The notes beneath the pieces are model-generated. The model saw only the letters and a list, made by a program, of their open reading frames with translations, had not been told where the DNA came from and did not search any database. DNA of 64,000 nucleotides from Centroberyx gerrardi (taxonomy: Eukaryota; Chordata; Actinopteri; Beryciformes; Berycidae): the NCBI RefSeq assembly GCF_048128805.1, contig NC_136010.1:19968980-20032979 (forward strand). Direction: 5' to 3'. This document shows, piece by piece, positions 32,446 through 57,900 of the stretch (positions within the stretch are counted from its first letter, which is position 1; each line of letters opens with the position of its first letter). Made by a program: the position numbers and the translations under genes.

Positions 32446-35185
32446 TCAGTCGTCCTCCTCCTCTGGCTCCTCTATGGGCTCTAGGAGGAGGCTGTGCCTC
32501 AGGCAGGTTTGGAGGTAGTTGACCAGTGTCCGCTGGAAGTGCTGGACGCTGCGGGGCTCTCTAAGGACGTGGCCCTCGTCTGGGTACAGCTGCAGAGAGT
32601 AGTTGGCTTCCACCTTCACCAGTCGGTTCAGGAGCTCAGCGCTCTGCTGGAAGTGCACCCTCGCTTTGTGACCATGGCCACACACACACGCACACACACA
32701 CACACACACATTTAGATTAGAGGTAATAAAATTAAACATAAAAAATTTACGTTAAAGGTCAGTATAAAATTGAACAATAGCTCACCATCTGCAGTTCCAT
32801 GTAAAATGAGGAAGTTCTCGTCTTTCAGCTTGTTAACCTCCTCCAGCAGAGAGGCAGTCTGAACAGAAACACAGCAAAAACATGAGTGGAAATTGTGTAA
32901 ATACAGTCTGAAGCTGACTTGTTGAGCTGGCCTCTATCACAGAAAGGGGTACAGTGTATTTTCACTGATGTTCAGAGCATTAGGTTTAGAGCCTCACCGA
33001 GTAAGTGTGTTCCTCCTTCGCTGGAAGGCCTAGGTACCTCTCTGAGAATGCAGCACCTGAAAACAGTGGAATAACTTCTACTGTGAAAACTGTGAAACAT
33101 ATATGAATTGTTATTGAGTTTAATCCCCGCAAAAAATATATTCACAGTTTTTATGGCCATTGAATGACATGATCTCAACTCACTATAAAGTCTAAAGTCA
33201 GTTATGGGAGCCACAGCAGCGGAACACTGAAACAGCTTGTCCGTTGCGGCTAACATCTTGAGAGTTAAATAACCACCAAATGCCTGTAGGAAGAGACATA
33301 AAAAGCACTTAACATACAGAGCATGCTGTATCTGTGTAGGTGGCCAGGCATAATCCTTTATGTCTATTATTCAATAGAAGTATTGAACTGCCAAATTAAA
33401 AAGCATTGTAACCTTGCCATAGAGGGCCATCCGACGATCATCAATATAAGGAAGTTGCATCAACCACCTGTGGAAACATATAAAAGGCCATTAATGTATT
33501 AATTATTAATACACTGACACTATTCTCACAATTCAACAGTATGGCCTGATGATATTGCATAAGGGCACTGACTCTACAACTCCCAGGTGATCTTTGACTC
33601 TGAGTGAGCCGAGCTTGCGTGGATCCACAGTGGCGGTCTTCTGTCCACGGCCAACCCCGCTCCTGCCGTCCACCCAGGCCAAGGCCACGTTGTGTGTACT
33701 GGAGAGGACCTGAGGCCAGTCCAGGGCAAATTCCTCTGTCACTGACTGACTACCAGGGACTCCATCTCTGTGTGACAAGAAGAACAGGATGAGCTAGTAC
33801 GGTAACAGGTGTGAGAGAATGAAGAGAGAATGAAGAGAGAATGAGAAAAGACTATGGGGATCACAGGTTGCAAAAGAGGTGACTTTAAACCACCAATAGC
33901 TGCTGTTCGGCATGCTTATCCTGGTCAACCTGTCTACAAGGTATGGCACATGTTATGACACATAGGGCTGCAATTCAGAGACACTTACACAATGATGAGT
34001 AGAGGGTGCAGGTTGGCCTCGTAACCCTGAGGTAGAGATAGCTTCAGGTGCAGATCTAAATAAAAGAAAACAGGGGCAGCAGGAGGTCAACTGTCAGGAC
34101 TAATATAGGTAAACCCATCCATAGTCTCTGCCTAAGACACTTCTGGGCACTGAACTGCAGAAACACGAACTCCCCTTAGGCTAATACTGTATGTGTCATT
34201 ATGTTAACAGTGAGTTCACACAAAAAAAACACAGACACACACCTACATGCACACCCAGGATCTGAATGAATGAATGCTTAGTGCTGGTTCCCAGAGGGAG
34301 GGCATGACTCACAGTCCCAAGGAGACTTAATCACCAAATTGAAGCAATTACTGCTTTCTTTGGTTGTTACTCTACTATATTTGTCCCCTCCAGTCTGAGA
34401 TATGTGCAGCCAGCGCTCCTTTGTCACTGCTGCATACAGTAGATTGAGCCACAGTCCATAAATGCTAAATTGCTCAGGGAAAGGTATTGATTATAATCTG
34501 AGAATGCTTTGTGACTGTAATTGTGTGGCCAATAGTCTAACTAAATGTTGTTGGTTTTTTTTGTTCAGCGAGCAGCCTGGTTAGATAAATACAGTGAGTA
34601 CGACAACAAATAAATACAATTAGCGATATGGTTTCTCTGCTGTACCGTGGTTGTCTGCTGACAGCGTCCTGAACAGAGTCTCAGGGAGCCTCTTGTCCTC
34701 CAGGGCTGCAGCCAGAAGGGCGTTGTCCTCCAGGACTATGTATCCTGCAGGGGATAAAACACCAGAGCGTCAGCTGCTACAGTGCAGTGTCTCACAATTC
34801 AAAACATCAACTGAGGTACAGACTGTCTTTCATGCTGAACATCAAGTCAGACACCTAGTGGGTCGTGCTCTCTGAGGAAACGGCAGACAGAGGGCGGTGT
34901 TCACAAGCAAACATTAAAGCCCTGAGATGAATGGGTCCGTGTGAGGCGGCCCCGATGTTTGCTTGCCTATACCACCCTCTGCAGGCCGCCGTGGAAAGTG
35001 TCTGATGGATTAGAGTGGGGAGAGAGGGTAGGTGGTATTTGGGTGATGACATCATTAGTCAGACACTCACTGGAGGGGTCCTTTGTACTGTGAACTGTCA
35101 CTTTGGGGATTCCAGGGCCTGGGGAATTGTTCAAAAGACAACATTGTAAATCCGAGTGTCTGAGCAGCATGCAGCTTTCATATTC

Positions 35186-35220
<35 letters not shown>

Positions 35221-38200
35221 TGTTTACCTAGGCAATATAGAGTGAAATGGGTTTGATTGGGGCTGAATTCAGCTTTGAAAAAGCCACATCCGTCTATGAG
35301 ATTACAGGAGAGACACCGGTGCTGAAAAACTCCATCCAGGTCCACACTCAGAAATAAGAGAAGAGCAAGATTATTGACCGCACTTAAAAGAATAGGGCCG
35401 TCTGAAGCTGTTTGATACGCTCCAGGACGCGGACAACTGATTGTTTGTATATTAAGGAAATGTAGCTGCGTCTTGAGACTATTCAGACGATTGACTCCTC
35501 AGAAACAAATGGGGTTCAATAAGGTTGAACATAAAAGCTGTTTTACAGATGGTGCTGTGAGGCTGTGCCCAGTCTGTAATTGTCCCTGTTCATACCAGAG
35601 CTTTCACATTTCATATAGGATTAATCACAGACCACGATCCTTCCTCCTCTACAGTATTAAGCTATCTACTGAAGCCCAAAGCTATGTAATAAAAAAAAGG
35701 AGATATAAACCCTAGGAGGCTGATGAGTGAAGAGACAAGCGTATTTATCACAGGTAGGGGGCAGGACCGTAAGTCTCAGTGACTCCTTGTCCACTGAGTT
35801 GGCCTTTTCCCTTATAAATGTATTAACTGGCCTGTCAGCTTGGAGCATATTCATGAGGATGGACCGGCTTCCTCTGCTGCATAGTCGCCCTTTACATCAC
35901 ACCTCACTTGTTTTTCACCTTTTTCATATCAGCAAATCAGTGCGCAGTCACTCCACTCTAACCACATTTTTGTGCGGTAACTGTTTAATCATTCAGATGC
36001 CATAAGTGATGTCTTAGTCGAATTGAATGAAAAGTGGGCAGCTCTCAAAAAATGAATCTAAAATCTGTTTTGGAATCGAAAATATGGCAAATTAGAAAGA
36101 TCTCCACAACTCCACAAGTTCAGTACACATCCTATCTTCGTTTATGGATTTGTATTATTCTACTCTTAATATGGAATGGAAATAATTACTGTATTTAATT
36201 TTACAACACACAGTAGGTCAAACATTTTGCATGCTTACCTGTAAAGGTGTCTGCTTTGCCTGGATTCTTCTGTGCTCAGGAAATAGCTGATAAAGAGAGA
36301 AATGACCCAGAGACAGAGCCAGTTATTCAACACAATCCAAGTACTGTAGATCACCCTTAGGCATCTTTACTTCATCGTAATTGCTCTATGATAAGGATCT
36401 ATCTACATATATTTACATACTTCTGCACAATAAAATCAGTGTATCACATTTAATTTGTAGGCAGTGTCAGTGATGGCGAATTAAAGCGTGTAAGCAGTGG
36501 ATTTACACCGAAATATGTTTTCTATCCACTTGAATATGAATAGCAGTGGAGTATTGTGAGAGAGCGTGACTTGCTTGGAGGCAAAGAGCGGTGCCAGCAT
36601 GTGCATTTTGGGACTGCAAACATCTGGCTGGATCTGCAGTAGACTTCCCATAATGCTCTATGATGCTCCACACAGTCATACCTCAGTGTGTCTGTGCAGG
36701 CACCCAAGCAGGGTTAAGACAGAGTTAAGCAATGGTCTGCTCTAAGTCTAACTAATGCTGTGTCCTCCTCAGTGCCAATGCTTTGCCATGAGCAAAGTCA
36801 GAGTCAAAGCCATTTGCCTTGCCCTTCTCATTGAGATCAATAAGTACACGTCAAAATGGCCTTTTTATGTCTTACGAATGGACAATTTTAAATGTACCGT
36901 TTAGCCCATGACCTAATGAAGGCATTTGCTCTCTAACAGCTGACACTTCCGGAATTTGCTCTGAGCTTACACGAAGAGATGATCATTTTAATGATGGCCT
37001 CTATCCTTCTCTCCCTCCTGTCACTTGTACATTCATTGCAAGGAGCTGTGAGCTGATAAAGAGCTGAAGGGTGACTGTGCACCGCTCCGCACACTGTGGC
37101 TCTCACATACATCTTCCCAGCCTTCTCGTCTAGGGCGCAGAGCAAGGTGACGTCCCAGTTCCCCGATGTCAAGAAGCGAGGAGGGACAGAAGGGATGGCA
37201 GGCTGCGTTACACAGAGGCAGAGGAACAGAGATGAAGAGGAATATAGAAACAGGCAGATAGACACGGAAACAGAAATAGAAATAGATGCAGCAGTACAGC
37301 GAGAGTGTGCGAGAGGATGTAAAAGAAACAAATTTAGATAGATCTACAGAATTAAACAAAATGCCGACAGTGCAGAGAGAGTACATAAAGGAGAGCAGTA
37401 TTTTTTAAATTATTCTTTATTTAGATAGTGAGGGAAAAAGCGAGAGAGGCACAAAGCAGCTGAGACACAGGAGAGAAAGCACTGGCAGGATTTGATCCTG
37501 AGCCAGTAGTGGCATACATGTGGGTGATTATAAAATAAAATGTCCTTCTTAATTCAGAATTCACTGAATTCTTGGATGAGATCTATACAGTATAAAAAAT
37601 TACGCTTTTTCCCCTCAAAAAGATAAAGGGCAGAAGAACATGGGGGCAATAAGCAAAATGACTCCTTTGATAAACAATTTGCTGACAAGGTATTGCTCAA
37701 CCAGTGTTTGCAAAATGAAGAAGAAAACAAATGGGGACAAATTGCTTGGAGATAATGAGAGAAGTGGAAGAGAGTGCGAGCAAAGCAGACATTAGGCACT
37801 GCGCTGTTAAGATCTGTAATCACACGCCATTTAATGTGGCCCTGTTGAGAAGTTAACAATCAATTTGGCCGTAAACTATTCGAGGATGACACAAGGGAGT
37901 AAAAGTTAACTGCCCTAAAACTGACCTGGGCTGAGAGGCTGGCAATGTGGCGAAACTCTCCACGAGCCCCCTGTTTGGATGGCAGGATCATATAAAACAC
38001 GGAGCCGTCAGCTGAAAACAACGGCACCTCCTGTTGAGTCGGAGAAACGGATCGAGTCAACAGGAATCTAGTGTCCCACCTCGCTAGTTGGCCCACTGGC
38101 AAGGATGGATAGCTGCAAATAGCCTTTTGCCTCATGAGAAACACCTACCTGCCGCTGGTTTTGCATCAGGTCCATGGCCACTTTGTGTTTCTGGGGATTT

Positions 38201-41200
38201 AAAATCACATACGAATTATTCACACCATTCATACTTACACCTAACACTGTTTTTCACAACATCGTATAAATAAACCATATTATGATTATTAATTATTAAA
38301 TGTAGCATTAATATGTAATCTGCAAAGGGGAAACAAAAATGAATCTGCGAGGATTACTGGGGGACAGAATTATACTGCAGTGCATCATTGAACATTCTTC
38401 ACATGCAGCAAATGACCTTAAATATTAATCTGGCCAGGAGAGATGTGAGAGCTTAAGGAAATCAATCCTAAGTCCCCACACTGTGCGAAAGAAGAAAAAT
38501 TCTATTAAAGCTGCATATGGCGATGGAGACCCGTTGGATTACTGATGTGGAACGAGTGATGACCGCTCACCTCTGAGCACGCCCCAGTGGTGGCCTCGCA
38601 CACGCACAGCACTGATTGGTTCTGGGCACGATTTAGCCAACGAACCGCGAGGCGGGTGCTGCTGACCCAAGTCACCATGGAGATGTAGCTGTCTCTAAAG
38701 GAGTAGTGCAGAAAAAAAAAAAAAACACGAGGAGGGGAGCGGAAAGTGGAATGGAGGAGTTGAGAAAAAAAAAGAAGCAGCAGAGGAGAGGAATTCAGAC
38801 ATTTCTGACAGCTGACGGCTAACGTCTTCATGGTTTATTCTGTTTTTAGACTCGGAGAGAGGTACTACCTGGCCCTCAGGGAGTCAGGAGGCATCATCTC
38901 CAGAGTGTGAGCTGGACCATACAGGTTCACTACAAACAGACTGACTGAGGGGATGCTTGAGCCAGCCTACGAAGTCGAGCAAAAGAAGAAAAAAAAGAGG
39001 ATCAGAAAACCTCATCAAATACGTTTAAGATCTTTTTGGCAAATCTGTTTTCAAACAGCTGTCACCTTGGGGTAAGGAAAGAACACGTTGGAGGGGTAGA
39101 GGCCGCCTAAGAAGTGAGGTATTTCCATCATAGGTGTGGCGGAGTTGTTGATGGTGAGGTATGCCAGCCGGGCGCCATCAGCAGACCACCAGTGGGCAGC
39201 ATAGGTCAAGAGCACTTCCTCTGTTGAACAAGAAAATGTTGAATTCATGACAGCTGTGAAGCCACGTACCTGCCGGCTTGATTTTGCAACTTTTCCACCC
39301 GACCACCTGGGTGTGAAACGTTGGAATACGTCCTACCTTCATAGGTCCAGTCAGAGAGTCCGTTGACCACCTGCGGTTCCTGACCACTGGATGTGAGACG
39401 CAGGGCTTTGCTGGTCACACCTGGCTTGTAGTAGATATCTCCGTCAAACACATAGGCCTGGCGTGACAGCAGCACAGACAGATAGAGCCGATCCGTTATC
39501 AAAGACAGCACACTTGCAGGCTTCGTCGCTGGCTGCCGGAATCAAGCGTCGGATGCCATCCAAGAGTGAATGAATCATCAGCCAGCACGCCCGAGTGAGA
39601 GCCAATACATCTTAGCTTGCCAGTTAATGTGCTGCAGATGAGCACGGACATAGCAGCGAAAGCAAATTACAGTACAGAGAAGCTAGATGAATTATATTAT
39701 CAGTGTAAAACAACCCCATTATAGCACCGCGGTCATGTCAATACGCTCAGTGCTGGAGTTCATCTCAAAACCCCAAAGACACATTGATGGCAGCATTGTG
39801 AAAATATGTCAAAAGGAGTTTCTGTTCATACACAGATTGCAATATTGTAGATTCTAAAGGTTTACAGTGTATTCCTCGCATACCGCCAGGCATAGTTGAT
39901 GTGGAGGACATGCTAACGAGTGAGAGAATGAGTAAGTAAGTGAGTTGAGTGCCAGGCTTACCAGCTGGTTCCCCTGGGGCCCCCAGGCTGCGTACTGTAG
40001 TGCTGCCTTCTCCCTCTCTGGAGGGTTAAGCTCCAGAAGATCCCTGGAACACACACAAAGCCGTCCATTAGGGATGACTGTCCCATTTACAGCCACTAGT
40101 GGATACAGACAGAGGACCTCTGAGGTCCATCCATGCCCTGGCCCTGAGCTTCGCTTGAGAGAGATTTTGTGAGGGGAAAAAAAGAGCAAGATGCAGAGAG
40201 GGAAAACGAAAAAAAACAGAGAATGGGGTTGGTTCATGCAAGGGTGCAACGTTTCTTTTTCCATATTTCTAGCCACACTTTTATCTTCCTTAGGACAGGC
40301 AAACACTTTCCTCCAAGGCATTCTCAGGCAATTCACTCTGATCAGTAGTGCAGATCTTCCTGAAGTCCCTTTCACAGAGGCACTGGCGTTCCTCCGAGAT
40401 ACAAGTTCCAGGTATCGTCTACAGCTACCATGGAGTTTCTCACTGTTATGAGGCTGGATATGAATCTCAGGCAGTGAATTCAAATGTAGATTACAAACCT
40501 CAGGCTGGATATGGCGCCTGGAAAGGGCACTGATAAAAAAGAATGCATGTCTGACAGAAACATGAGGCTCTGATTCGATGAGACACACTTGGGGGAACTT
40601 TGTCAGTCCGCGGGCCTGCTTGCATTGGTAACGCTCATGCCCAGTGCAGCCCATGCATTAGCATTCATGGTTCTACCTACCCATTAGCCACAGTGTAGAT
40701 AGCATAGGAGGCTGTGAAGGACTGAGAGAACACCTGAAAGAGGTAGAGGATATGATGCACAGGTGTCCCGCACTTAGAGGAGAACACACTCACACATTTT
40801 AGTACTCGCACATGCACATACACAGGTGCACATGGACACACACACTCACACACACACAACCACATGTGCACATGCGTATCCAGACATGTGCACACATACA
40901 AACACAAACATGAAACTTGGTTAATTGCAAATGAAACAAAGGTAAGGAAGGATAGTGCTGAGGCCAAGCACTGCATTATTGGCTGCCGGCTTATTGCTTT
41001 TATAAGCCGGCAGTAACACACCACTATATTAAAAAAGAAATAAGCCAAATGTTCAATGAATCCTAAATGATTTTTTACTGATAATAGTTAAATTTAATGT
41101 TATTCCTCCGCCAAGCAACATAGTCGTGCCTAAACAAAGTGGTTGCTAAGCGACACATGAATACGGGTATGTGTGGTGATTCTCAGTTACCACATTAATA

Positions 41201-42104
41201 TTTAAATACACTGTTTAACTGTGTTTAGCAGGTATTTTACAGCAGCTTTGACTCAGCCAATCAGAAGTGAGGACCAAAACTGTCCATTTTATACGGGTCA
41301 TTAAAACTTGGCCAGCAATTTCATCCATATTACATCATCTGATTAGCATAGGAATTTAGATAGCAGGCCTCCTTAGACTGAGTAAAAGAGACAAGTTAAC
41401 ATTACAGACGTGAAGTGAGTAAGGAAAGTACGGGAACTACGAGAGACATCCTTATTAAATAGCATCATTACAGCTAATATCCTTCCAAGTGATAGAGATC
41501 CATTGTGGCTGGCAACTCTCTCGCAACCCTGACACAAGCATCAGCAGCTCAATGAATAATTAAATTAGCATGTTGAAGAAGACTAGGGACCAGAATCGAT
41601 GAATGTGTGTGTGTGTGTGTGTGCGTGTGTGTGTATTAAATACGATTGATCACAACAGTACCTGATGAATTCTAGGTAATATATTGATTGCTACCGGTTT
41701 TTTTTTTTTTCAAGCAAAGAGTTGGAAGCAGGCTATTTGCCCGCTGGCCTCTAACAACCCCAGCCTCCTGGAAAGCCAGTCCCTAAAGAAATTAAATGTC
41801 ACATCTTCTATACAGCATACTTAGCAGTGAAATTGGATTTCTCTGTGTGTTGTTTGTCCCCAGCTAGAAAATGCAGGGATGGAGAGAGGCAGGGGTAAAG
41901 CAGCAGGGATAAAGAAAGGAAGTAAACAGTGTGGCTTTCTAAAGGAAATTGAAACCTGATTGCAGTGTGGTAAGTCTTGCACAGCTGGATGTTGGTGCTG
42001 AGCGTGAGGGCAACTAGGCATACAGGGAAACAGCTTCCCCTTCGCTAAAAGCACAATAGTAACCAGGAAGAGGGAGGAAGAATGAATTGGCCAAAGACCG
42101 GGGA

Positions 42105-42144
<40 letters not shown>

Positions 42145-43370
42145 GGGAAGGAGGGCAGAGTCACTGGCATCGAGGCTGAGGGCCAGAGTTGACAGATATT
42201 TAACAGACGTCAAGCGGGCATAGCAGAGTTAGGAGTGTCACTCTATGAGGCCAAAGGGGGGCAGCCGCAGCATAATCAGCTGTTTATGATTTGTTAACAA
42301 ACCCAGAGGTCCTGCTCATAATTTCACATTATGAAGCTAGCGGAGACAGTACGTTATTGTCTGTGTGTGTGTGTGATAAACAGACGGGACGCCTGTGTAC
42401 GTGCGAGGCAGAGAGAGAGTGAGAGCATGTGTCCCGGGGAGGCAGGAGTGAATTCTAATGTGGCTGCCAACGACATGTCATAAATCCTCCAGATCGTTCT
42501 GCTCGTCTCCCCCCCATTACTACCCGCCCCCTCCCCAGATTAAACACCCAGAAGACTCGTGCGTTCGTGTGGGATTCACTGACAATGGCACCGTGCGGAG
42601 ATTACAACGCCCGTTGCGTGAGGACGGATATTGGTAGCTATTGTATGCTGCAAGACGCACAATATGAGGGGGATAATAGCATCCCTCCCTATCCCATTGT
42701 TTACGCCTCACAAGCATTTCTTTACAGTTTCTCAATGTGCTGCGTTTGATACCAGCAAACAGTGGTGGCTTGATGCAGAGTGCAGACACAACTGGCCTGG
42801 TGTTTTATTTGTCCCTAAACTGCACCGCCTTGGCAGGTACCGCTCTGCTTGCCTCTCCCCATCAATCCCCCAAACCTCCATCTCATCTAAACGATCTCTC
42901 CTCCACTCTTTAAAATATATGGTTCCTCCTCTCTCTCCATCTCTCTCTCTCTCTCTCTCTCCTCTCACACACAAACATACAAACACACATGCACAAACCT
43001 GTCCAATTCACACAGGCTTGGAGGACAGACGGAGCCTTTTCCTGTAGGAAATCAGCTTCCACTTGTTCCTATGAGGCCCCATCCCTAACACACCTCCGAC
43101 TATACCCTCTTATCAAAACCCATTTATTTTCACCCACCAGGCACAAACTGTCCCTAAAGCCTCAAGAGCTAATACGAAATCCAGAGAAGCCTTTTAACTT
43201 TTACCCACAGCCCGCTCATCCATTTCTCCCCACTGCAGCTCTCTCCTTTTAGCATCTCTGTCATTCTTTTATGCCCATTCTGATTGATTTCGATTGGGCA
43301 GGCTATGTAAGGGCAAATGGTGCATATCACATTTTTCTCCCCTTCTCCTCTGCTAGTGGCTTTCTCCCCT

Positions 43371-43406
<36 letters not shown>

Positions 43407-43532
43407 TCTCTTTCTCTCTCATTCTCTGCCATTCTCAGCAGCATGCCGCTCCTCTTCCGAATAAGGAAGCTGGCGCTGGCTGCAAACTGCTTCAGTCAGC
43501 ACAAAACCCCCAGAGATAGACAGAAAAAAAAA

Positions 43533-43565
<33 letters not shown>

Positions 43566-44185
43566 GAAGAATGAGAGAGAGGAAGAGGGAGCTAGAAAGA
43601 GAGCAAAAGAGGGGGAGAATGGAGGAATATCCCCCACGCGCACAAAATACCAGCCATGCCCACACACACATACACACACACACACACACAAACACACACA
43701 ATATACGCATGAATCCAGGTGACATATCCGCTGTCTCTGACTCCTATGAGTGTGCATACATCCCCTCGCTCACACTGAGCATGCAGATGAGGATAGACAA
43801 TTCCTGCTGATACCATAGGAAGTATGCTAATGACATGGCATAAATCAACCAAACCCACCCATAAATTGGGCAAACATCTGAACCTCATCTTTCTCTACCC
43901 GGTTTTTGATATCTGATAACTGATATATCGTGTATTAACCACTAAATAATTCAGTTAAGCTGAATGTGCTGTGTGTTTATGATAAATGCTTTAACACAGC
44001 AACAGGCTCGCACACACACACACACCCCACCCCCACCCCCCTCCACACACACACACACACACACACACCTACACACACTCACACACAGAGAGAATATGAT
44101 ACGCAGTGATTAGAGCAAAAGCAGATCTTTGAAAGAAGGACCCAGAGAGGTAGGGGAAATTCAAAGAGAGACCGAGAGAGAGAGA

Positions 44186-44227
<42 letters not shown>

Positions 44228-47200
44228 ATTCTAAACAACAGCAAAAATCTGTGCTGGGATTTTTAATAAAAATATGTGGGGGAAAAAAATGTGCTGAGAG
44301 CTTTTTTCCTCCTAATTCTGTTTTCTTCCCTCCCCCATTACTTGCACATTACGCGTCTTGCCTGCCCTTTGAGGGAAAGAGTCAACTATTTATTAAGCGC
44401 GCGGGTATTTACAGAGTGGGAGGACCGGCGGGGAGGAGAAGAGAGGCTATATGGCGCTGGGTTGTTTTTTTTTGTGTGTCTATACCATCGATGTGAATAG
44501 ACGCTTATCTCAAACCAGCTGGAGATTGCGAATTTGACTCTCGTAAGCGCCTCATTAAAATTCCCCACCAAACTAGCAGGGCGATTTCATTACTGCAGCT
44601 CCAACTTTGCCGCTCCATCTCCCTGATCTCCCCTTCCCCCCTTCTCTCCGCTCTCCACATCAAACTGATCACTCACCCTAAGCTTTCCTGTAACCCCCTC
44701 TGCACCTTCCACCATCAGCCACTTTAATATTCGACTCCTCACATGTTATCTCAGTCGTTTTGGCTGTCTGCGTTGTAGAGCTACGGACTGCTGCAGTAGC
44801 AGAATCGGTCCCCCTCCTCCTCCTCCTGTTCCTCCTCCTCCTCCTCCTTCCTGTACTCTCTCTTCCCCTCTGTTGTTTCTTTGGGGTCCCCCTCCTCCCT
44901 CCCTCCCTCCTCTCCCTCATACTCTGTAAGATGTGATTAGAATGCATGTCACCGTTGTTTCACAGCCACCAGTGGTCCGCCAGACAAGTAGAGGGCTGTG
45001 AGCGGGAACAGATTGGCTTTGATATTAGGGGATGATTTATGGTCCTGCATGTTCTCTGAAGTTAAAATGCTTGACAGTCCCTTTCTGGCACAGTTCAGAA
45101 TCAACTTACTGTTTTACATGATTAAATGCTGTGGCAATAAATCTTTCCTGACCATAGATTCGGACAAAACTTACCGGTCGAATGTTATGCGCCAAGAGGA
45201 CAAACCTCTTGTCTGCGGACACGTGGAATTTAGTGCTGGTCAGATCCTATAGAAAAAAGACAACATATCATCAGATACTTCGATGTGGCCTGCGGCGAAT
45301 CTAAACCTCTAAGTGTGACACACTATTTGGGCAAAAATCGTCTCATTGCATCATGTATGTCTGGGGAAGCTCTATTTGCTTGTTGGTATTCATGCACAAA
45401 AACATCTTTTTCTGGGATTAACAGCAGCGGCGGAGACGCTACAGCAAATCGCAACTCAGGGGAGCAAAAAGAGGAGCGACTTCATCTCAACCTGACAACA
45501 CAACCCTGCTTAAGCTCCTCGGCAATGACCCATATAAGTCTGTCAGTGTCGCGCAGAGGCGGCGTTCAAAATGATGCCCTTGCTTGGAAAATCTCTTTGA
45601 AGCCACATGTTGAGGGCTCAAACACAGCAGCCGGATCGGGGGGGAAAAAGCGGTTTATTCTGTCACTCTGCCACTGCATATACAAGGCTCTATTTGTCTC
45701 AACAGGGGGATGTGTAACAGGGGGGCTCTATATTCCCTCTCCATCTGGAAGCACCTCTCTATTGACCAGTCCATTTGTCCAGCTGTCTGTATATATGAGG
45801 CAATCAATAGTGAGATCTACCCTTTTGGCAGTAACTCACCAGGGAGCTGTTGTCCAGCAGGGTAGCGGTGAGGTTGCTGTTGAGGCTGAACGACAGCACA
45901 TGTCCTTCTCTGGTGCGCAGAGCCACTTCGTTTTCTGACAGGGACAAGACAGTTGAGGAGGAGAAAGTCCTGTGTTATTAGAGTTATGACAGAAATCCAC
46001 AGAGGCCATGATGCTGGCTGCCTCTGCAAACCCACGGCTCTGTTTCAGGTGAGATAATTAAAAGTGGCTTGCGACTGACACAGGCACTTTGTCAGTCAGA
46101 GGTAATCTATACATCAGCACAGGGGAAATAGACTTTTACCGTTCAACCATGCCACACGGGGGTCATGAACTTTGAACTCCTCGCTCTCCAGATCCTCCAT
46201 GGTGAGACGGGAACGGAGTAACAAGTGGGACTCATCTTCGGAGAGAGAGAGAGAGAGAGAGAGAGGCAGAAGTTAAAGAAACTCCTCGCTTTTCACTTTT
46301 CAGCGCATAACGAGAATTATCTTCTATTTACAGAGAAGCAAAGCCTGGGCATGTTTGCAGTGTTTTGCTTCAGTCTTGGTTTCTTTTGGCATATTTTGAA
46401 TGTGCTTGTTGATATGTTTGTAACGTTTGTAAGAAATGTTTGCCTGCCTGCATTATCCTCCCTTTAATCCCCACACTACAACTCCACTCCACTTCTTTGC
46501 CTTTATTCTTTCCCACTTCTCTTCGCCCCCATTTTTTTTTCATTGCTGTCTCTCCCCCCCCCCCCCCCCCCAGTTCTTTCCATTCTCTTACCGGGTGTGA
46601 GGAGGATGACGGAGAGGATGACCAGGGACATGACGGCCACGATCACCACCATGGCAATTCCTATGCCCTTCCAGTTCCGTGGTGGACCACCTGAACCACC
46701 CAGGTCCTGACAGATAAAAGAATACACACACACACACATGTGCACGCACACACACACAGAGTGATGAGTGTGAGCACAGCCGAGGGAGAGAACATTAGTG
46801 CTGCTTCATTTCCACGGTCGCACAGAATTTTCTCTCCGACAGGCATATCAGTACAGTGAGTCTCTGGAGGATTGAGACCAGTTTTCACCGTGGCAGAAAT
46901 CTACCTGAATTACACTCATTTTCCTTAAAAGTGGTGCATAAAAAACTTTGCAAATGAGAAATTAGACTTTAATTGCAGGCAGCAATTTTTAGTCATACCA
47001 TAATCCCTCTCCACAGCCGCCTCATTTCACCTGTTACATTACTAATGGGCCGTGTGGTAAGGCTGAGAAGGAGGGATATGGACAAAATGATCATGAAATG
47101 TGTGGCGCCTAAAAAAATGTGCTTCAAAGATAAAGCCTTTGTCGAATTCATCTGCAAAGAGCCGCTTTGGGAGATCAAGATGTACTGAACTGATTTGGAG

Positions 47201-50200
47201 GAAATTCTTGATGCGGCGATAAAAAATAAGCAAAAGCAGATGGGACGAAATAGCGATATGATGAATTATAGACAGAATAGCTCAGCTGCAGTTGCCAGGA
47301 GAGGGAAAGCTTCAAGTTAAGGCTCAGTTCCTCGCACATCCTCCTCCTTAACGCCATCAGGGGGAACTGATGGAATGAGATTGCGACAGTATCAGTCACA
47401 ATTAAACACAATTGCGCGCCGTTCCCGGGCTGCGCTCCACTCCCTCGTAATGAGAGGCTGGCATCGCCGGAGCCACATGCCCACTGGAGTGTGAGAGTTC
47501 AATCACAGAGCAGCCATAAAGCTCAGCCTTCATAATGGCCGCCCACCCCTTGGCTTAACCCTCGCAGCCTCGCCTCTCCCTGTCACCTTCCTCCGGGCCT
47601 TGGAGAGCGGAGGAGAGCAGGGAAGGAGGAGGAGGAGGAGGAGGAGGAGGAGGAGGGGTGGGGGGCATCTATGCGGTTCAGTGGTCAACAGATTGCTGCT
47701 CCTCCGCGCTCCCTGGGTGCCACCAGCTGTCCCTGAGTCTGTGCTATCAGCCACAGTTGCCCCCATACATCCCCCCCCCCCCCGCCCCCCCCCCCCCCCC
47801 CCCCCCCCCCCCACATCCACACACCCACACACTCCTATACTGTCCTTGACCATGTGACTCGAACCCCCCCGGCACTGGGTGTAGATATGAAACAGTGTTG
47901 AAAACATGACCGCGTACTCAGGACACTTCAAAATGTCAGAAAACTCAATTCCAAAACAGAAAGCATGGTAGCAATTGAAGATTAAAGGTCACCTCACTTG
48001 AGCCAGAAACAGTGGGGGACACACATTTTCTCACCTTACTTTACGGCTTCATGCACTGCTTATTTTGTTCAGCACTAACCCTCGATACACATTTCTTCTT
48101 TTTTTTTTTTATCAATCTGAGAATTCATTTCAGAAAATCCTCACCTGCTATTCCAAGGTGGCTTACTTTCAACCCGAGATGTATGAGAGTCAGACAAGAG
48201 CTCGGCTATATCTTGACTAGTTGCCAACACGGGACTCCTGCCAAGGTCTCATCTTTAATAGATCTCCTTGGCTGCGGTATCATAACACGTTCAAATTAAA
48301 ACCACTACCAGTTGCACCAACAGGGACGTCTTTTAAGTGATGTTTCAGCTCCCAGTGCAGGCCGGAGCTGTTGGGCAGGCGATTGATGTGCGAGTCTCCC
48401 CGTATCTACTGCCCTCTACAACACTGTGTTTTATCTCATCCTCTTGCCCTCTCGCCGCACAATCTCTCTGCTACAGTGAACCACCATCATTCCATCTGAA
48501 AAAGTTATGTAAGACACTCTATGGAGGCTAGGGGAGTGCTAGAAAATTGTGCAATCAATATTGCAATACATTCAATACTGACAATATACTGTATCGTCTA
48601 CAGTTTCTGTATGATTGAACTATAAAGCACATTTTTTTTCTGGAAGTGAAACCAAGTGTGGAGAGGCAGCTGCTAGTGGCACTAAGCAATTTGTATATAT
48701 TGCTTTATATATTTGTATATTTGATGATTAAATGTTTGAAAGTGGCTGTTTCTAATGGTAAAATCTAATTTAGACTCTTTTTCACGCCACAGATTTGCAA
48801 TATGCTGTACAGAATTGCAGTCATCTGAGGATTACAGTATCATAACACATATATTGAAAGATCCCTCGCAATTCCCAGGTCTCATGGATCCCATAGCAGG
48901 AGGGGACACTTTAAATGAAATTCCTCCGCTCGGCTGATTCCACCACAGACAGTGTTTTCATTTGCAAGTCCTCTCTCTAATTACTGAGTGCAACATGCGA
49001 GCCCAAACATCCTTCTTAATGGGATGCACAGCTCCCATCGTTCCCCTGAGCTCACACATTAGACTACACTTCCAATTAAGGTCGCATCGTTGTAAGATAG
49101 ACAGGGAGAATCCGCATTGGGTGAATGAGGAGTTTTGTCACACTTGCAAATGAGGCACAGATATGAAGAGCAGAATCCCCAGAGTGAATGTGAGGAGAGC
49201 TGCCACCACTGGCTGGCTGCTGGTCGCATTGCATGTGGGATCTAATACAGCACAAACTGCTGGCACAGGTGAACGGATGAGGAATCGGGCTGTGTGACAG
49301 ACCCGGCTTGTCTCAGTCAGCAACCTGATGGACAAGAGATTATATCTCATAGCAGATTTTCTGCTGAGCCACATCAAAAATGAATCACACATAGATCTTC
49401 CTCACTGAGCCATCTATCCCATCCAGCCTACTTGATCCCACGGGAGCTGAAGAAGAAGCCTTGATGAGGTGTCACTCAAACACAAAGGGACTCAAGAATG
49501 CAAATCAAAGCTCTTTATGTTTATGGATAACTCTCACTTGAAGGAACGCCGCTGAGAGGGATTTTGGCAAACCATGCCGAATTGCATTAGAGAAAAGAGA
49601 GCTCCTACCTTTGCCAGCAGAGCTTGGGGAATTTCACTCAACCAAATGAAAGAATCGATAAGGTGTGCAGTTGAACAAGGTCCAGAGGGAAACAATTAAT
49701 GCAGCCTGTAAAGGGGACTTTTAGATAGACAGACCACTGGAGAGCACTGTTTCTTGCAAAGTATGACACCTCCTTGCGGATTACCGGGACCTTTTCTGAC
49801 CTTTCCACCATCTCCACTCAGAAACCCGTACTCAACGGACTGGAACTGTTTTTCAAATTCAACACAGACAGATTTCAGCTAACTGGATCCTTTTTTCAGA
49901 GCAAAGCCCACAAAATCAAACACCTCTAATTGTATTGATTGAGTTCACACACTATAAAGGAAGCCACACCAAGCACAATTACTCAATCCACACACTATGC
50001 ACCACAACTAGGTTGTGGACAATCCAGGCGGTGCTAAGAATTCATAAATTAGGCTCAGGAGACCTCCTTAACTCCATCTTCTCTGTCTTTGAGGCGAGGA
50101 GAACCCAACAATAAATCACTTGCGTAGGAATCAGAGAACCAATGCAGGCGTAGTCTTCAGGGATACAGATTCTCGATTTGCATTCCTCTCACCTCCCTTT

Positions 50201-52951
50201 AACATCAGGCTATGATATTTACTACACACATGACATTGGCAGAGGCATCAGTAAAATAACCACCAACATGAAAAGAGAGGGAACTATGTATTGGCAGATA
50301 CATATAGCCTTCAATATATCCTATAAGCCCCTTATTTTAATGATTCATTGTAATTGCCCACAATGGAGAGCTGTAGATTAGCAAGTAACCCGCGCATGTA
50401 TTGCCTTGTCAATATCTCTCTGTGCCTCATTTAAAATGGAGGTTATCGTTAAAGTGGGCTGTAACTTCAGCTTAGTTTGAATAGATGGTAACCAACCTGC
50501 TGAAGTAAATGAGATACCAAAGCTTGATTTCTATCTAGGCTATCTTTTATCACATCCAGAAGAATTGCTGCACTCCTACTCACTGTGCCACCATGTCTCC
50601 CTTGTGCTCCCCATGTTAAAAGAGGCAGTAGGTGGTAAAGACACCATATGGGACTAAGTGGGCAGATTTTGTGCCCTCGAGGCTAACGCCAGACAATGCA
50701 GCACAAGCCTTAGTGAAATGAAAGACCCACCGCTTTAGCCTCCTCTGCTGCAGGGCTGCCCTACCGTCTTATTCTTTTCATGCTTCCCATCACGCATTAC
50801 AAAATTTACTGTACAAAAGGGTCCTGCGTAAGGAGGCTTTTCCTCAGTGAGTCCAGCCTCTCACAGTGGTTGGGTTTCTGCCTTGGGAAACAAGCAATGT
50901 CAGTGAAATGCATGTGGCAGAGCTTTGGGCAGCATGGCAGAGTTACACTGAAATATGACAGAGAAGAACATGTCGTTTTTACAGCAGGCCAAGATTCTGC
51001 ACAAACAAACTATTGGTTTCACAATATGCTCAACAAATGATACAATATACTGTACAATATACCAATCCACAATATCAGTGTTGAAGCTGAAATTGAAACA
51101 AAATTGCCTTTGAAAGAACTAATTAAATCAAGGTTGTTTTCTTCCTTAATACAAGGGATTAAATGAGCCAGAACAAAAAATATTATGTTACTGTGGCATG
51201 AAATTGTTATATTGCTTTGTTAATTGTATTTGGTTATGGCCATAATTGCCATCACAATACATTTTTCAGCTCAAACAATGCACTTTGAAACTATTGTATC
51301 ATGATGTCCCTAATGTTTTATTGTTACATTCCTCAAACAAACACATGACTGACAAGTAGCAACCCATAATATCTCTTCATCCACTGCTTCTACTCATCAG
51401 CGGGGAAAGACATAACAATTAGCAACACAACTGAGCAATAAAAATAATCCCTCATTGAAAATGAGCAAATGTGGTTTGCCTCATAAATTGCTTGGCTGTG
51501 TAAAGGGTATTGATTGGAGACAGGGGCATAAGACAGTGCGACATTTGCAGGCAATGGATCATCTGTAAGCCCCACAGCGTCATGTGGCTCTCTCAGGGAA
51601 ACGATAATGCTGCAGGATAATCTGAATACATCAAGACACCATTTCATCACATCAGTAGAACTGAGTCAGTGTGTCACATTATTTCAAACATCACTATGCC
51701 CAGTATCATACTACATATCACATTACAGAAAATACCCATGGAGCGTTTTTTTATATATATATATTTACTGTCAGTCCAGTCTCTCAAACACTTGCCTCCA
51801 CCTGCAGCTCTGAACTGAAAGATCTCTGGATTGAAACTCTCTCCCAAAGAAGGTGATGGTTTGTTGAGATCTGTCAGTTGGGCGATTTGACACAATTTCA
51901 AATTGTTGCACTGCACTGAAAATAGAGAGCATATCCACCACAATAGCTAATCTCTGGGCAGCGACTGACTCATCAGTGTGAGAAAGTTTTATTTAGCCTA
52001 AGCCCATAGTGAGAAGGAAACAAGGTGTAGATGTTAGTCATGTATCAGGATTTCAAACTTTCCTTGTCCAGAAATCCCATCCAAACAAAAGTGTAAACCC
52101 TGACTCATGACTAATTGATCTGCTGCAGCTTGATACTCGCTATCGATAATATCATACTAATACATGAATAACTACACCAAAAAACAATATTATTTTTAGG
52201 CATAGAAACCATCAATGAATCTTATGAGTCACCATGTAACATTTGCAATCAACATTCTGTGCCCACAATTTAGAGCGGGCATATGAACAGAGATGAACTC
52301 TACATGGCAATCTCTTTTCCAAAGACACCAACATCAAGTGCCAGAATCACTTTGGAGCTGTTATTACAACATGTTACAATAGAATTAGTAGACCATAATA
52401 AAATCATTTCTTAAACAACAATGCAGATGTGTGACTATAATTTCAGCATCAATTAAGAGTCTAAGGAGTGTAAGCAAAAAAATATATATGATAGTGGCTT
52501 ATCGTCATTCATTGCTCATTGACAATACACCTACACAGCAGAGGGATAATCAATCATACAGTGCAGGCTGTAGTTTTGAGCCCCTTTGTCACCATGCACG
52601 TCTAAGCATTAAACTGATGGGGACAGGCAGCTGGGAAAATCCTAATATCTTAGTGTTAGATGGAATAAATGAGGATTATTATTGATGCAGCAGATATCAT
52701 GTAATAAAAGTGTATCTGGGACAGAAATACAGGTTAAGAGTGAGAGGCACTGGACGTCGAGTTACTACACCAGCCAGCACCGCAGTGCACAAAGTCGAGC
52801 CTGTCCAGCAGATGGATATTGACGGAAGAAAGTCTGAATGGGCCACAAAAGGCTAAAACACACGCGCTAATCGATGATCACCGTTTTGTGTGGATATGTG
52901 AGGAATTCCCTTCTGCACAGCGGAGGATTTTACAGAATCTCCCTCGGCAGG

Positions 52952-53029
<78 letters not shown>

Positions 53030-53132
53030 TCTGTGAAAACCCAACCAGCGTGGACTTGGAATCTGAAGAAAAATAAATAAGGATTCAATAATTACTATAA
53101 TTAAAAAAAACACATACCAGCTCCGTGGTCAT
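32446..53132 (-). CDS. DPP6/DPP10-family inactive dipeptidyl peptidase-like membrane protein
   Basis: Type II membrane protein of the S9B family; DPP6 and DPP10 are non-enzymatic Kv4 channel partners, a role inferred here. Exons, minus strand: 53118-53132, 46592-46706, 46140-46235, 45840-45934, 45175-45246, 40681-40733, 39962-40043, 39337-39457, 39066-39220, 38869-38966, 38571-38694, 38149-38190, 37926-38030, 37111-37202, 36239-36286, 35228-35346, 35071-35118, 34646-34744, 33989-34055, 33573-33767, 33413-33467, 33184-33283, 32998-33056, 32786-32858, 32446-32663. They total 2,346 nt, or 781 residues. After a 19-residue tail comes one hydrophobic segment (about 20-41) preceded by NWKGIGIAM, as in DPP6/10. 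A beta-propeller region follows (NRAQNQS, TTGACSE), then an alpha/beta-hydrolase fold. The nucleophile motif GWSYGG of DPP4 is GKAFGG here (Ala633); Asp709 (HGTAD) and His741 (YPDEGH) remain. It resembles DPP10 in places and DPP6 in others. The 5-residue first exon (MTTEL) is the least certain part. Confidence 0.88.
32679..32710. repeat. (CA)n microsatellite beside a splice acceptor
   Basis: Read on the minus strand it is a TG tract ending about 15 bases before the acceptor of the last DPP-like exon (exon starts at 32663). Confidence 0.9.
35188..35219. repeat. (GT)n microsatellite
   Basis: About 16 GT units, just downstream of the donor of DPP-like exon 35228-35346 on the complementary sense. 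Confidence 0.9.
37400..37535. repeat. SINE-like dispersed repeat, copy 1
   Basis: Begins ATTCTTTATTTAGATAGTGA, continues through purine-rich 'gagagaggcacaaag' and 'gacacaggagagaaagc', then 'ggcaggatttgatcctgag', which resembles a tRNA B box (GGTTCGAATCC). A related start occurs at 58330. Probably a tRNA-derived fish SINE; borders are approximate. Confidence 0.45.
41605..41633. repeat. (GT)n microsatellite
   Basis: GT tract with one GC interruption. Confidence 0.85.
42103..42144. repeat. (AAAG)n microsatellite
   Basis: About ten tetranucleotide units, essentially uninterrupted. Confidence 0.9.
42935..42962. repeat. (CT)n microsatellite
   Basis: Pyrimidine dinucleotide tract. Confidence 0.85.
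43371..43420. repeat. (CT)n microsatellite
   Basis: Long TC tract with a few CC and TT interruptions. Confidence 0.9.
43539..43700. repeat. Paired (GA)n and (CA)n tracts
   Basis: GA tract at about 43539-43565, purine-rich sequence, then a CA tract at about 43660-43700. Confidence 0.85.
44010..44225. repeat. Compound (CA)n and (GA)n tracts
   Basis: CA tract with a C-rich interruption (44010-44088), then a long GA tract (about 44164-44225). Confidence 0.9.
46241..46265. repeat. (GA)n tract forming a polypyrimidine tract
   Basis: On the transcribed minus strand this is (TC)n and sits immediately upstream of the acceptor for DPP-like exon 46140-46235. It appears to supply the polypyrimidine tract. 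Confidence 0.85.
46551..46572. repeat. Poly-C run
   Basis: Long C homopolymer about 20 bp downstream, in the transcript sense, of the donor of the transmembrane exon. Its length is assembly-sensitive. Confidence 0.85.
47621..47656. repeat. (GGA)n microsatellite
   Basis: About twelve trinucleotide units. Confidence 0.9.
47770..47812. repeat. Long poly-C run with one G
   Basis: About 42 bases of C broken by a single G. Likely hard to sequence, so its length is unreliable. Confidence 0.9.
52952..53024. repeat. (CA)n microsatellite, about 36 units
   Basis: The longest pure dinucleotide CA tract in the window, about 95 bp from the donor of the proposed first DPP-like coding exon. Confidence 0.95.
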
Positions 53133-53282
53133 GTTTTGTTGAGTTGTGGCAATCATTGTGGTCCGCAACAAGCTGTGGCACCTCAGTCACGTTAAAACCC
53201 GCTCAGCAGCTGCACAGTGGTCTCGCAGCGCTTGTTCTCCATGCTCCGCTTCTTGCAAGTTTGTCTTCAGTGGGCTAGTGAT

Positions 53283-54972: not shown

Positions 54973-57900
54973 ATGGAGACGGCTGTACTGAACCTGCACA
55001 GCTTATTTGATAGACTGAGGTCACAAATCGACTTCCTCAATGAGAGCGTTGAGCCCCGTGAGTAGTTTATTGTTGGTTTTACCTCTACTGTCATTGAGAT
55101 ACCATAGATCCCTTTAAAGATGCCTGTCATGTTCATGTGTGCATCCTCTTTTCCAGAGTTCATCCAGATGGCACTTAACTTTGATGACTGCCGTCGAAAA
55201 TGGCTTAGGGTTGAGCAGGATTTGGGGTCTTGCAAGGAGGTGCTTGCCAAAGCAGAGACAGAGAAGGGAGCCTTGGAGGTCAAACTCAAGCATGCCCGCA
55301 ATCAAGTGGACGTGGAGATCCGGCGGCGCCAGAAGGCAGAGGCTGACTGTGAGAAGTTGGTATGTTGGAAAAAAGTGCTGACATTTCTCGTGATCCCTGT
55401 GTCCCTGTTATTTCACCCATATCAGGTAATTTCTCATTTGTCCTCGGTTTGCTTTTCTGTCGTACAGGACCGTCAAATCCAGTTGATCCGGGAGCTGCTG
55501 ATCAGTGAGGGATCCAGTAACAGCATCCAGCTGAATGAGGAGCAGCGCTCGGCTCTGGCCTTCCTCAACACACGCTCTCAGGCACCGCCAAACATGAACA
55601 CCAGCCGGCGGTAAGCAACCCATACACACACCTATACAGTATATAAAAGTTGTAGAGTTCCTGTCTCTGGCCCCGGAGGGCTTCTGGCTTTAAAACTTGC
55701 CTTGTCAGTGCTGTGACTGCGTTATCTGTGGTTTGACCCTCCTTTTTATCTGATACAATACTGAGAGAGTGGCCTAACCCATATTTTCTGTTGCTCCTTC
55801 TAGACTCACGACCATAGATGAGTCCGCCTCCATCCTGTCAGACATCAGCTATGATAAAACGGACGACTCCCTCGTAAGTTTCTCTCTTCTCAGCATTATC
55901 TACAATTCACTGCCTTGACTACATACTCGTATTCAGCAGGAACACGAGTAAGAAGAACTCCCCCGTTTAATTCTTAATTGGTGTGTAATCCATTTTTAAA
56001 GCTGATCCTGGTCTGTTTGATCTGTGACAGGATTGGGACTCCTCTGTTGTGAAGACGGTGCGACTCAAGAAACGAGAAAAGAGGGTATCTAAACTAATTG
56101 TGCAGTTTTTCTCCCCAAGCATTTGTGTTTCCAAGAATAGTCTCATGTTTACTGGAGGTATAACTATAAGATGTTTGCTCTCTTTGATTTCAGCGCTCCT
56201 CCAGAAATCATGTCGACGGTCCTCCACTTGCCTCCAAAAGGTCTCGATCAACAGGCAGAAATTCAGAGCGGGTAAATACTGTCACTCCCTCTCTCGGTCA
56301 AAGAAATGTGTCAGCACAGTTTTTTTGTACATGGCGAACCTGGCTGACTGTCTCTATTTGTTTGTAACAGGGAAACGAGTCCATTGTGGCCAAAACCACA
56401 GTGACGGTGCCTGCAGATGGAGGACCTGTTGAGGCCGTTTCTACTATTGAGTCTGTTCCCTACTGGACTCGCAGCAGGAGAAAGACTGGTTAGATTTCTA
56501 TTATGCCATCTATTATATTTACCCTCAAAAATTGTCCTGATTCTGTGTGTAATGGTGTCCTAATAACTAAGCGTAACACCTTTTAATTACTCCATAATAA
56601 GATGGTGCTCATCTGGATTTTATTTACGCAGAAAAAAATCACGTTGTTCTAATTGTATTGCTGTTATACTGTTGAGTATGAATGTGTGGTTGAAGAATAG
56701 ATTTTCCCATGACTGAAGGATGGTATTGGTATGTAATAATATCCCTGAGCTGATATGTATTTTCTATCTCCCCTGTGCAGCTGCCATGGAGTGGGACTCT
56801 GAATCTGTCAAGTCTGAGGATGTCTTCAAACAGCCTGCCAAGCCTGAGAGGGAGATGAGAGCCGAGCCCAGAACTCCGCAGAGCAACGGCGGGGTCCGCC
56901 TTCATGAGTTTGTCTCCAAAACTGTAAGAATGCCACCTGTGTGAGAAACATTACACTGCAGAGTAATTTAATCATAGTAGAAAAAGCAGGTTTTCTTTTC
57001 TGATTCAAGGATAATTCTGGTTATTTTCAACCTGGGCTGCCATCATGTCGATCAGATAGACACTTGTGTGACAAGAAGATTAGAAGCAGTTTCACCTTTT
57101 TGTGTTCTGTATTTGGTGTAGTGCTTTTGTGGTGAAGCAAAGCTAATTTTTTACCATCCTCTATACAGTGTGTTACAGCATTTACATACATTGGAGTGAA
57201 CTGAATAAGTACACACTGTATTTATGCACTGTACTTACTTTTACTGTAGACACAGGCGAAGCTGCTACCAGTCCACTTGTCTCGCAGTGTTATGTTGATC
57301 ATTTGCCAAAACTCGGTGTGTTCCCCAGGTGTCGCTGAACACTGTATGTTTCCAGCTGTTGGCCCACTATCTTTACTGAGTCCTGTCTTGTTTCTGCCTA
57401 AGGTCATTAAGCCAGAATCCTGCGTGCCCTGTGGGAAGAGGATCAAGTTTGGGAAGATCTCTCTGAAGTGCCGTGACTGCAGAGTGGTCACGCACCCCGA
57501 GTGCCGCGAGCGCTGCCCGCTGCCATGCATCCCCAACATGGGTGGCACCCCCGTCAAAATTGGGGAGGTACGTGAAAGCACATTTCCTGTTGATTTCTCT
57601 CTTGATGTTCAGGTACAGTCGCACTATATGGTTTATTTCAGTTTTTGCACCTTCATTTCAGTGCTGTCCGTCTTTTTTTCATTTCTCTTTTTTTTTTGTA
57701 TGCAGGGCGTTCTTGCAGACTATGTCTCAGTCACGTCGCCCATGATTCCCCCTCTGGTGGTCCACTGTATCAGTGAGATTGAGCAACGAGGGCTGCATGA
57801 GGTGAGTGTTGTATTTCCAGCCTGTCTCCATATTCCACAGAAGCATGAAGGACAGTAAAGCCTGAGGTCCCAAAAGTTATATCTGACGTCTGTCCCTTAA

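Follow-up and report, generated by a model that had tools for sequence, protein, structure and literature searches.

The window analyzed here, a 64,000-nucleotide stretch of Centroberyx gerrardi DNA (NC_136010.1:19968980-20032979, chromosome C14; coordinates below are window positions unless a chromosome is named), contains on its minus strand, between positions 53156 and 32446, an additional and intact DPP6/DPP10-type gene that is separate from both dpp6 genes of this fish and is referred to as the window gene. DPP6 and DPP10 are protease-like proteins that lack an active site and tune potassium channels. We hold, with moderate confidence, that the window gene is a third vertebrate gene for a dipeptidyl peptidase-like protein (DPLP), which was retained on the HOXC/12q13-like member of a paralogon and probably codes for an auxiliary subunit of Kv4 channels. 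An origin in the two rounds of whole-genome duplication (2R), at the HOXC position, is the best reading of the co-location of marker genes on C14 and of a weakly supported tree.

To our knowledge, no third DPP6/DPP10-type gene is known in human. Among titles of the open-licence literature on DPP6/DPP10 in teleosts, on duplication and on the paralogon, none reporting a third DPLP gene was found. The relevant part of a 2014 review describes the DPLPs as two genes, DPP6 and DPP10 (PMC3973911), and the section of another report in which the first exon of DPP6 is traced into teleosts mentions no third gene (PMC3366920). Databases may well contain such genes, labelled for instance as DPP10-like. With a third copy where the paralogon would lead one to expect it, the history of the Kv4 auxiliary subunits becomes testable and it can be predicted which vertebrates should retain the gene, and studies of A-type currents in fish may overlook a subunit that is missing from mammal-based gene lists.

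Structure of the window gene

The completed model consists of 788 codons and a stop in one open frame, distributed over 25 exons including a proposed exon 1, and all 24 introns have GT donors and AG acceptors. The 24 core exons were recovered by a home-made spliced aligner with either DPP10 or DPP6 as the guide, and the two results differed in a single boundary, the 3' end of the last exon. That end, together with exons 1 and 2, was read directly from the DNA. The features of the gene are as follows.

53118..53156, minus strand: proposed exon 1, start codon and 13-residue cytoplasmic N-terminus (open reading frame (ORF), donor GTATGT, phase 0, in-frame join to exon 2)
46592..46706, minus strand: exon 2, 10-residue juxtamembrane segment and 28-residue transmembrane helix (18/28 residues identical to the DPP6 helix in 7ukg; splice sites read)
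45175..46235, minus strand: exons 3-5, stalk and beginning of the beta-propeller (spliced alignment to DPP10 and DPP6)
37111..40733, minus strand: exons 6-14, beta-propeller (spliced alignment; DPPIV_N, 3.5e-93)
33989..36286, minus strand: exons 15-19, end of the propeller, with its cysteines kept, and entry of the hydrolase domain (model and alignment)
33573..33767, minus strand: exon 20, DGVPGSQSV, without the oxyanion Tyr, and an altered DGRGSG motif (195 nt, the length found in C10a, C10b, C22 and C13, the genes introduced below)
33184..33467, minus strand: exons 21-22, YGK/AFGGY across the exon junction, nucleophile Ser replaced by Ala (spliced alignment and protein alignment)
32446..33056, minus strand: exons 23-25, HGTADARVHF (Asp kept), LYPDEGH (His kept), acidic C-terminus and TGA (last intron absent)

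A preliminary description of this DNA had recognized a clear DPP6/DPP10-like gene, and the intact 788-residue model, in which all four motifs quoted at that time were found, bears this out. The 3' boundary given there, 32446, is the exact end of the TGA stop codon, and the 5' boundary given there, 53132, is an in-frame ATG of exon 1, but the second one, the first lying at 53156. Exon 1 is the least certain exon and is given as a proposal with no homologous exon behind it. A short list of patterns searched on the upstream minus strand did not reveal the mammalian a-type first exon (MNQTA). Besides MIATT, the only match to the list was MSRSS at 51397, which was discarded as a first exon; it runs directly into a stop.

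All 23 core intron phases of the window gene equal the first 23 of the fish dpp6 gene on C13, which has one intron more. This last intron, located between NYSLQ and LYPDEG, is kept in all five other DPP6/DPP10-type genes modelled from the same genome, so that the window gene differs by its absence from both fish dpp10 genes as well as from fish dpp6, whose intron phases it otherwise shares. According to the part of the DPLP review concerned with gene structure, DPLP genes have 25 common core exons behind alternative first exons (PMC3973911); the window gene has 24 core exons. The missing intron is treated here as a minor, derived difference and as no bar to membership of the DPLPs.

Domains and loss of catalytic residues

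A 765-residue model of the window protein matched the Pfam families DPPIV_N (3.5e-93) and Peptidase_S9 (3e-39), and thus contains the beta-propeller and the S9 hydrolase domain of a DPLP. The transmembrane helix typical of these proteins (NWKGI...SVILLTP) is also present, with 18 of 28 residues identical to DPP6, beside a short variable N-terminus encoded by the proposed exon 1. In PDB searches with an early hand-joined version of 726 residues, the matches scored 718.5 bits for DPP10, 669.7 for DPP6 and 372.3 for DPP4. The fold is clear from the 44-49% identity to solved DPP6 and DPP10 structures.

The nucleophile motif reads GKAFGG in the window protein versus GWSYGG in DPP4, that is, the Ser is replaced by Ala and the neighbouring Trp is also replaced. 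In the alignment of 12 proteins the window protein has Asp at the position of the oxyanion Tyr (IVDGVPGSQ versus DVYAGPCSQ), and the catalytic Asp (HGTAD) and His (DEGH) are retained. Because both the nucleophile Ser and the oxyanion Tyr are lost, as in DPLPs, the window protein is, judged from its residues, a pseudo-peptidase of the DPP6/DPP10 kind. Of the columns in which the same alignment lists a cysteine for DPP10, the window protein retains all eight. The residue at the former nucleophile site varies within the family: Ala is found in the window gene and in an extra DPP10-like gene on C10, Val in the two fish dpp6 genes, Asp in mammalian DPP6 and in the dpp10 of C21, and Gly in human DPP10 and in the other fish dpp10.

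The preliminary description had also likened the membrane anchor and propeller to DPP10 and the hydrolase entry to DPP6. LQYAAWG and a 13-residue motif are identical in DPP10 (4wjl). As to the hydrolase entry, DGVPGSQSV is near the mammalian DGTPGSQSV, but fish dpp6 has DGTPGGQM and the dpp10 of C10 has DGSPGGQS; because fish dpp6 lacks the GSQS form, the motif is no argument for kinship with DPP6 and was dropped as such.

Relatives in the same genome and phylogenetic position

The genome covered by the profile searches comprises 278 contigs and 779 Mb. Copy numbers were taken from the DPPIV_N search, in which 34/34 candidates were scored and at least 26 matches obtained, the counts being lower bounds; the matches were grouped into 8 DPP4-type loci, one of them the window gene, and 2 that were read as DPP8/9-like from the profile position. 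Spliced models were built for two DPP4/FAP-like genes with GWSYGG (C10 and C21), two dpp6 genes (C13 and C22) and a pair of dpp10 genes (C10 and C21), the last of which we read as copies from the third, teleost round of duplication (3R). The extra DPP10-like gene, C10b (C10:8009218-8028878), is convergent with the dpp10 of that chromosome, C10a, whose modelled end at 8004692 is about 4.5 kb away; it has Ala at the nucleophile site (GKAYGGF), and the DNA taken around the locus yielded no N-terminal exons for it. In the dpp10 of C21 (C21:5444519-5445023) the exon of 195 nt is split into 129 and 66 nt. Because these lengths add up to 195 nt, which form one exon in C10a, C10b, C22 and C13, the split suggests the gain of an intron.

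Trees were inferred under LG+I+G4 from 12 proteins and 674 of 800 columns (columns with fewer than 9 letters among the 12 were dropped), and a smaller set contained 9 proteins and 634 columns; support is given as Shimodaira-Hasegawa approximate likelihood ratio/ultrafast bootstrap values. Vertebrates were represented by the paralogues of this genome and by PDB chains of DPP10, DPP6 and DPP4, of which 4wjl and 7e8b are human according to their papers, while 7ukg (used as human DPP6), 7w6t (a second DPP6) and 3qbj (DPP4) were taken to be mammalian. The dpp10 of C21, whose locus contains a run of N and lacks the middle exons, entered the trees as two blocks and filler, and that of C10 without its N-terminal exons. 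For C10b and the C22 gene, N-terminal stretches that had aligned spuriously were removed, and the true last residue of the window protein was appended by hand. Approximately unbiased (AU) tests compared 13 trees with the outgroup and 10 without it.

DPP4 was set apart from the DPP6/DPP10 part of the tree at 100/100. The window gene fell outside both the DPP6 clade (100/100) and the pair formed by the dpp10 genes of C10 and C21 (97.8/98). Its separation from a group made up of human DPP10, the two paired dpp10 genes and C10b received 84.7/56, 89.2/58 and 88.6/57 under LG with the outgroup and 90.6/83 without it. A position inside teleost dpp6 was rejected by the AU test with the outgroup (0.004; delta lnL 96) and without it (8e-6; delta lnL 93), which rules out a plain dpp6 copy and the nesting within teleost dpp6 that the preliminary description had named as a refutation. 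As far as the aligned proteins can tell, the tree excludes dpp6 membership but is not by itself proof of a third 2R lineage.

The identity of the window protein is 49.0% to human DPP10, 48.7% and 45.9% to the partial dpp10 sequences of C10 and C21, 45.7% to C10b, 42.1% and 44.0% to the fish dpp6, 43.7% and 44.5% to the two mammalian DPP6, and 31.7% to DPP4. It resembles DPP10 (DPPY) in identity, common motifs and the inactive hydrolase domain, but differs in its nucleophile site, where it has Ala and DPP10 has Gly, in its chromosome and in its position outside the dpp10 pair. With DPP6 (DPPX), represented by the chain 43.7% identical to it, it shares the transmembrane helix and the acidic C-terminus, whereas it is rejected from the teleost dpp6 clade and its Ala corresponds to Asp in mammalian DPP6 and to Val in fish dpp6. 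The S9B fold, the Asp and His of the triad and the YEEE loop are common to the window protein and DPP4/FAP, from which it is distinguished by the low identity to the DPP4 chain, the loss of the Ser nucleophile and the oxyanion Tyr, and the full support for their separation.

Chromosomal position

The genes for proteins with an HH_signal domain lie on C10, C13, C14, C21 and C22 (11/11 candidates matched), and these five hedgehog chromosomes are exactly the five that carry DPP6/DPP10-type genes, C14 being the only one of them without a dpp6 or dpp10. If four of them are taken for granted, coincidence of the fifth chromosome has a probability of about 1 in 19 by a hand estimate that assumes 23 chromosomes, contig numbers running to C23. 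Engrailed was matched on C10, C21, C13 and C22 (4 matches among 16 candidates), Hox9 at C14:12.04 Mb and on C10, C19, C12, C7 and, weakly, C15 (6/7 candidates), and FYRC, a KMT2-type domain, at C14:11.56 Mb, at C13:16.90 Mb and on C22, C12, C19 and C6 (7/9 candidates). The FYRC match of C14 is about 33 kb from the hedgehog gene and that of C13 is 0.13 Mb from dpp6. The occurrence of dpp6, dpp10, engrailed and hedgehog loci in pairs would be that of a teleost genome. The identities of the hedgehog, Hox and KMT2 genes follow the chromosome pattern rather than trees, and the C14 hedgehog gene was read as dhh.

We take human 7q36 to contain DPP6, EN2, SHH and KMT2C, 2q14 to contain DPP10 and EN1, 2q35 to contain IHH, and 12q13 to contain DHH, KMT2D, RACGAP1, CS, COQ10A, ANKRD52 and HOXC. 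The paralogon would accordingly have a C14-type member with hedgehog and Hox9, a member with DPP6 on the SHH/EN2 side and a member with DPP10 on the IHH/EN1 side. The window gene shares its chromosome with hedgehog, Hox9 and FYRC matches, in agreement with the claim of the preliminary description that HOXC is a third position left by 2R; as to the duplication history contained in that claim, the tree gives no firm third 2R branch.

Weight of the evidence and alternative origins

Several observations weigh against a third 2R gene. The branching order of DPP6, DPP10 and the window gene was supported at 24.7/35, 30/41 and 43.1/45, and at 2.5/31 under LG+C10. In AU tests with the outgroup, three placements of the window gene all passed: at the base (0.73), as sister to DPP6 (0.35) and as sister to the DPP10 group (0.60). 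Under LG+C10 the support for its placement was weaker than under LG+I+G4, and its exclusion from the DPP10 group fell to 80.5/38 with the outgroup and 69.7/70 without it. A grouping with human DPP10 alone also passed without the outgroup (0.15), as did one beside human DPP10 plus the teleost pair (0.49 with the outgroup, 0.28 without it). Among the DPP6/DPP10-type branches of the tree that of the window gene is the longest (0.63 substitutions per site), so that its placement may be an artefact. On the chromosomal side, the genome profile searches found on C14 neither engrailed (16 candidates) nor, as an additional paralogon marker, the CNPY family (10 candidates, of which the 7 matches lay on C13, C5 and C23); Hox9 and FYRC matches also occur on chromosomes without DPP6/DPP10-type genes; and the C14 markers are about 8 Mb from the window gene, which therefore makes them same-chromosome evidence rather than evidence of tight linkage. 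Finally, exon 20 (33767-33573) encodes DGRSGV in place of DGRGSG, where the other 11 aligned proteins have D/E-G-R/H-G-S-G followed by [FYA][QR]G. As the length of the exon is unchanged, the altered motif may reflect paired small indels. This loss and the long branch are also what would be expected if the window gene were decaying or non-functional, an explanation that we consider very improbable: the 788 codons in 25 exons contain no internal stop or broken splice site and the DPP10 cysteine columns are all kept, and an intact frame despite such divergence implies long purifying selection.

The alternative to be taken most seriously, though we judge it unlikely, is that the window gene is a fast-evolving teleost dpp10 duplicate which was relocated to C14, whether it arose in 3R or by later segmental duplication. 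Its top identities, 49.0% and 48.7%, are of the DPP10 type, and a position beside the teleost dpp10 pair passed the AU test (0.38 with the outgroup, 0.081 without it). Of the earlier statement that the gene is no obvious orthologue of either DPP6 or DPP10, the part concerning fish dpp6 stands, and the part concerning DPP10 is less firm. However, both chromosomes of the DPP10 side, which carry engrailed and hedgehog, already hold a dpp10, whereas C14 is the fifth hedgehog chromosome. Pairing with a single dpp10 was rejected for that of C10 (0.023 with the outgroup, 0.0044 without it) and was borderline or rejected for that of C21 (0.051 and 0.018), and the optimal trees under both LG and LG+C10 keep the window gene outside the DPP10 group. 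There is even less to recommend, in our estimate, a derivation of the window gene and of the extra C10 gene as ohnologs from an older tandem pair. The two share Ala at the nucleophile site (GKAFGG and GKAYGG), which is weak evidence because other members of the family differ there, with Val in fish dpp6 and Asp in the dpp10 of C21, and their grouping, with an AU value of 0.068 with the outgroup, fell to 0.040 without it; moreover, in the optimal trees C10b falls, with weak support, on the DPP10 side, near its base, and not with the window gene.

Proposed function and history

We infer not only the 2R origin of the window gene but also its loss in tetrapods, its binding to Kv4 and its expression. 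The product would be a single-pass type II membrane protein with a short cytoplasmic tail, a conserved transmembrane helix, a beta-propeller and a dead hydrolase domain, and by analogy with DPP6 and DPP10 it is probably still a Kv4 auxiliary subunit. As the pertinent part of a structural report describes, the single transmembrane helix of DPP6S touches S1 and S2 of the voltage sensor of Kv4.2 and accelerates gating (PMC8566240). The helix of the window protein would most likely pack in the same manner on S1-S2 of a Kv4 channel and speed gating as DPP6 and DPP10 do, and its large extracellular part would aid surface delivery.

Insects may have a single DPLP gene, and the fly orthologue of DPP10, a protein of the same family, binds Kv4 and still cleaves peptides, as stated in the part of the fly report used here (PMC4873792); in this peptidase activity it is unlike the window protein, which has no catalytic Ser. 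Because the fly protein binds Kv4 yet still cleaves, channel binding probably predates the loss of catalysis. A wider scenario, to which we give even weight for and against, has three DPLP genes at the origin of vertebrates, one for each surviving hedgehog/Hox branch of the paralogon, of which the DHH/HOXC copy would have been lost towards mammals and kept in this teleost, where, once free of peptidase constraint, it would have diverged rapidly and become a distinct class of Kv4 subunit, equipped with an N-terminus of its own.

Neighbouring genes

Along the window, an ankyrin-repeat gene and a COQ10-like gene are followed by citrate synthase, the window gene and a racgap1-type gene, the names having been assigned by eye. 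The exons that flank the window gene are as follows.

20048..24655, minus strand: citrate synthase exons (Citrate_synt 2e-17 and 8.8e-9 on 2/2 ORFs; further motif at 24578-24655)
55108..59908, plus strand: racgap1-type exons (C1_1 1.3e-6, RhoGAP 7.5e-17; name racgap1 read by eye)

Seven of nine neighbouring ORFs matched a Pfam family, the two without a match being 55108-55611, in the racgap1-type stretch, and 9371-9658. The location between cs and racgap1 given in the preliminary description is thus confirmed by citrate synthase exons on one side and C1 and RhoGAP exons on the other, and the names of the neighbours agree with the content of 12q13 given above. The window has no N and therefore an assembly join inside it is unlikely; the assembly break beside cs that had been considered as a source of error corresponds to no gap in the window, and an assembly error within it was rejected. 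Beyond racgap1, a minus-strand ORF at 62967-63266 encodes a DUF1295/steroid reductase-like domain.

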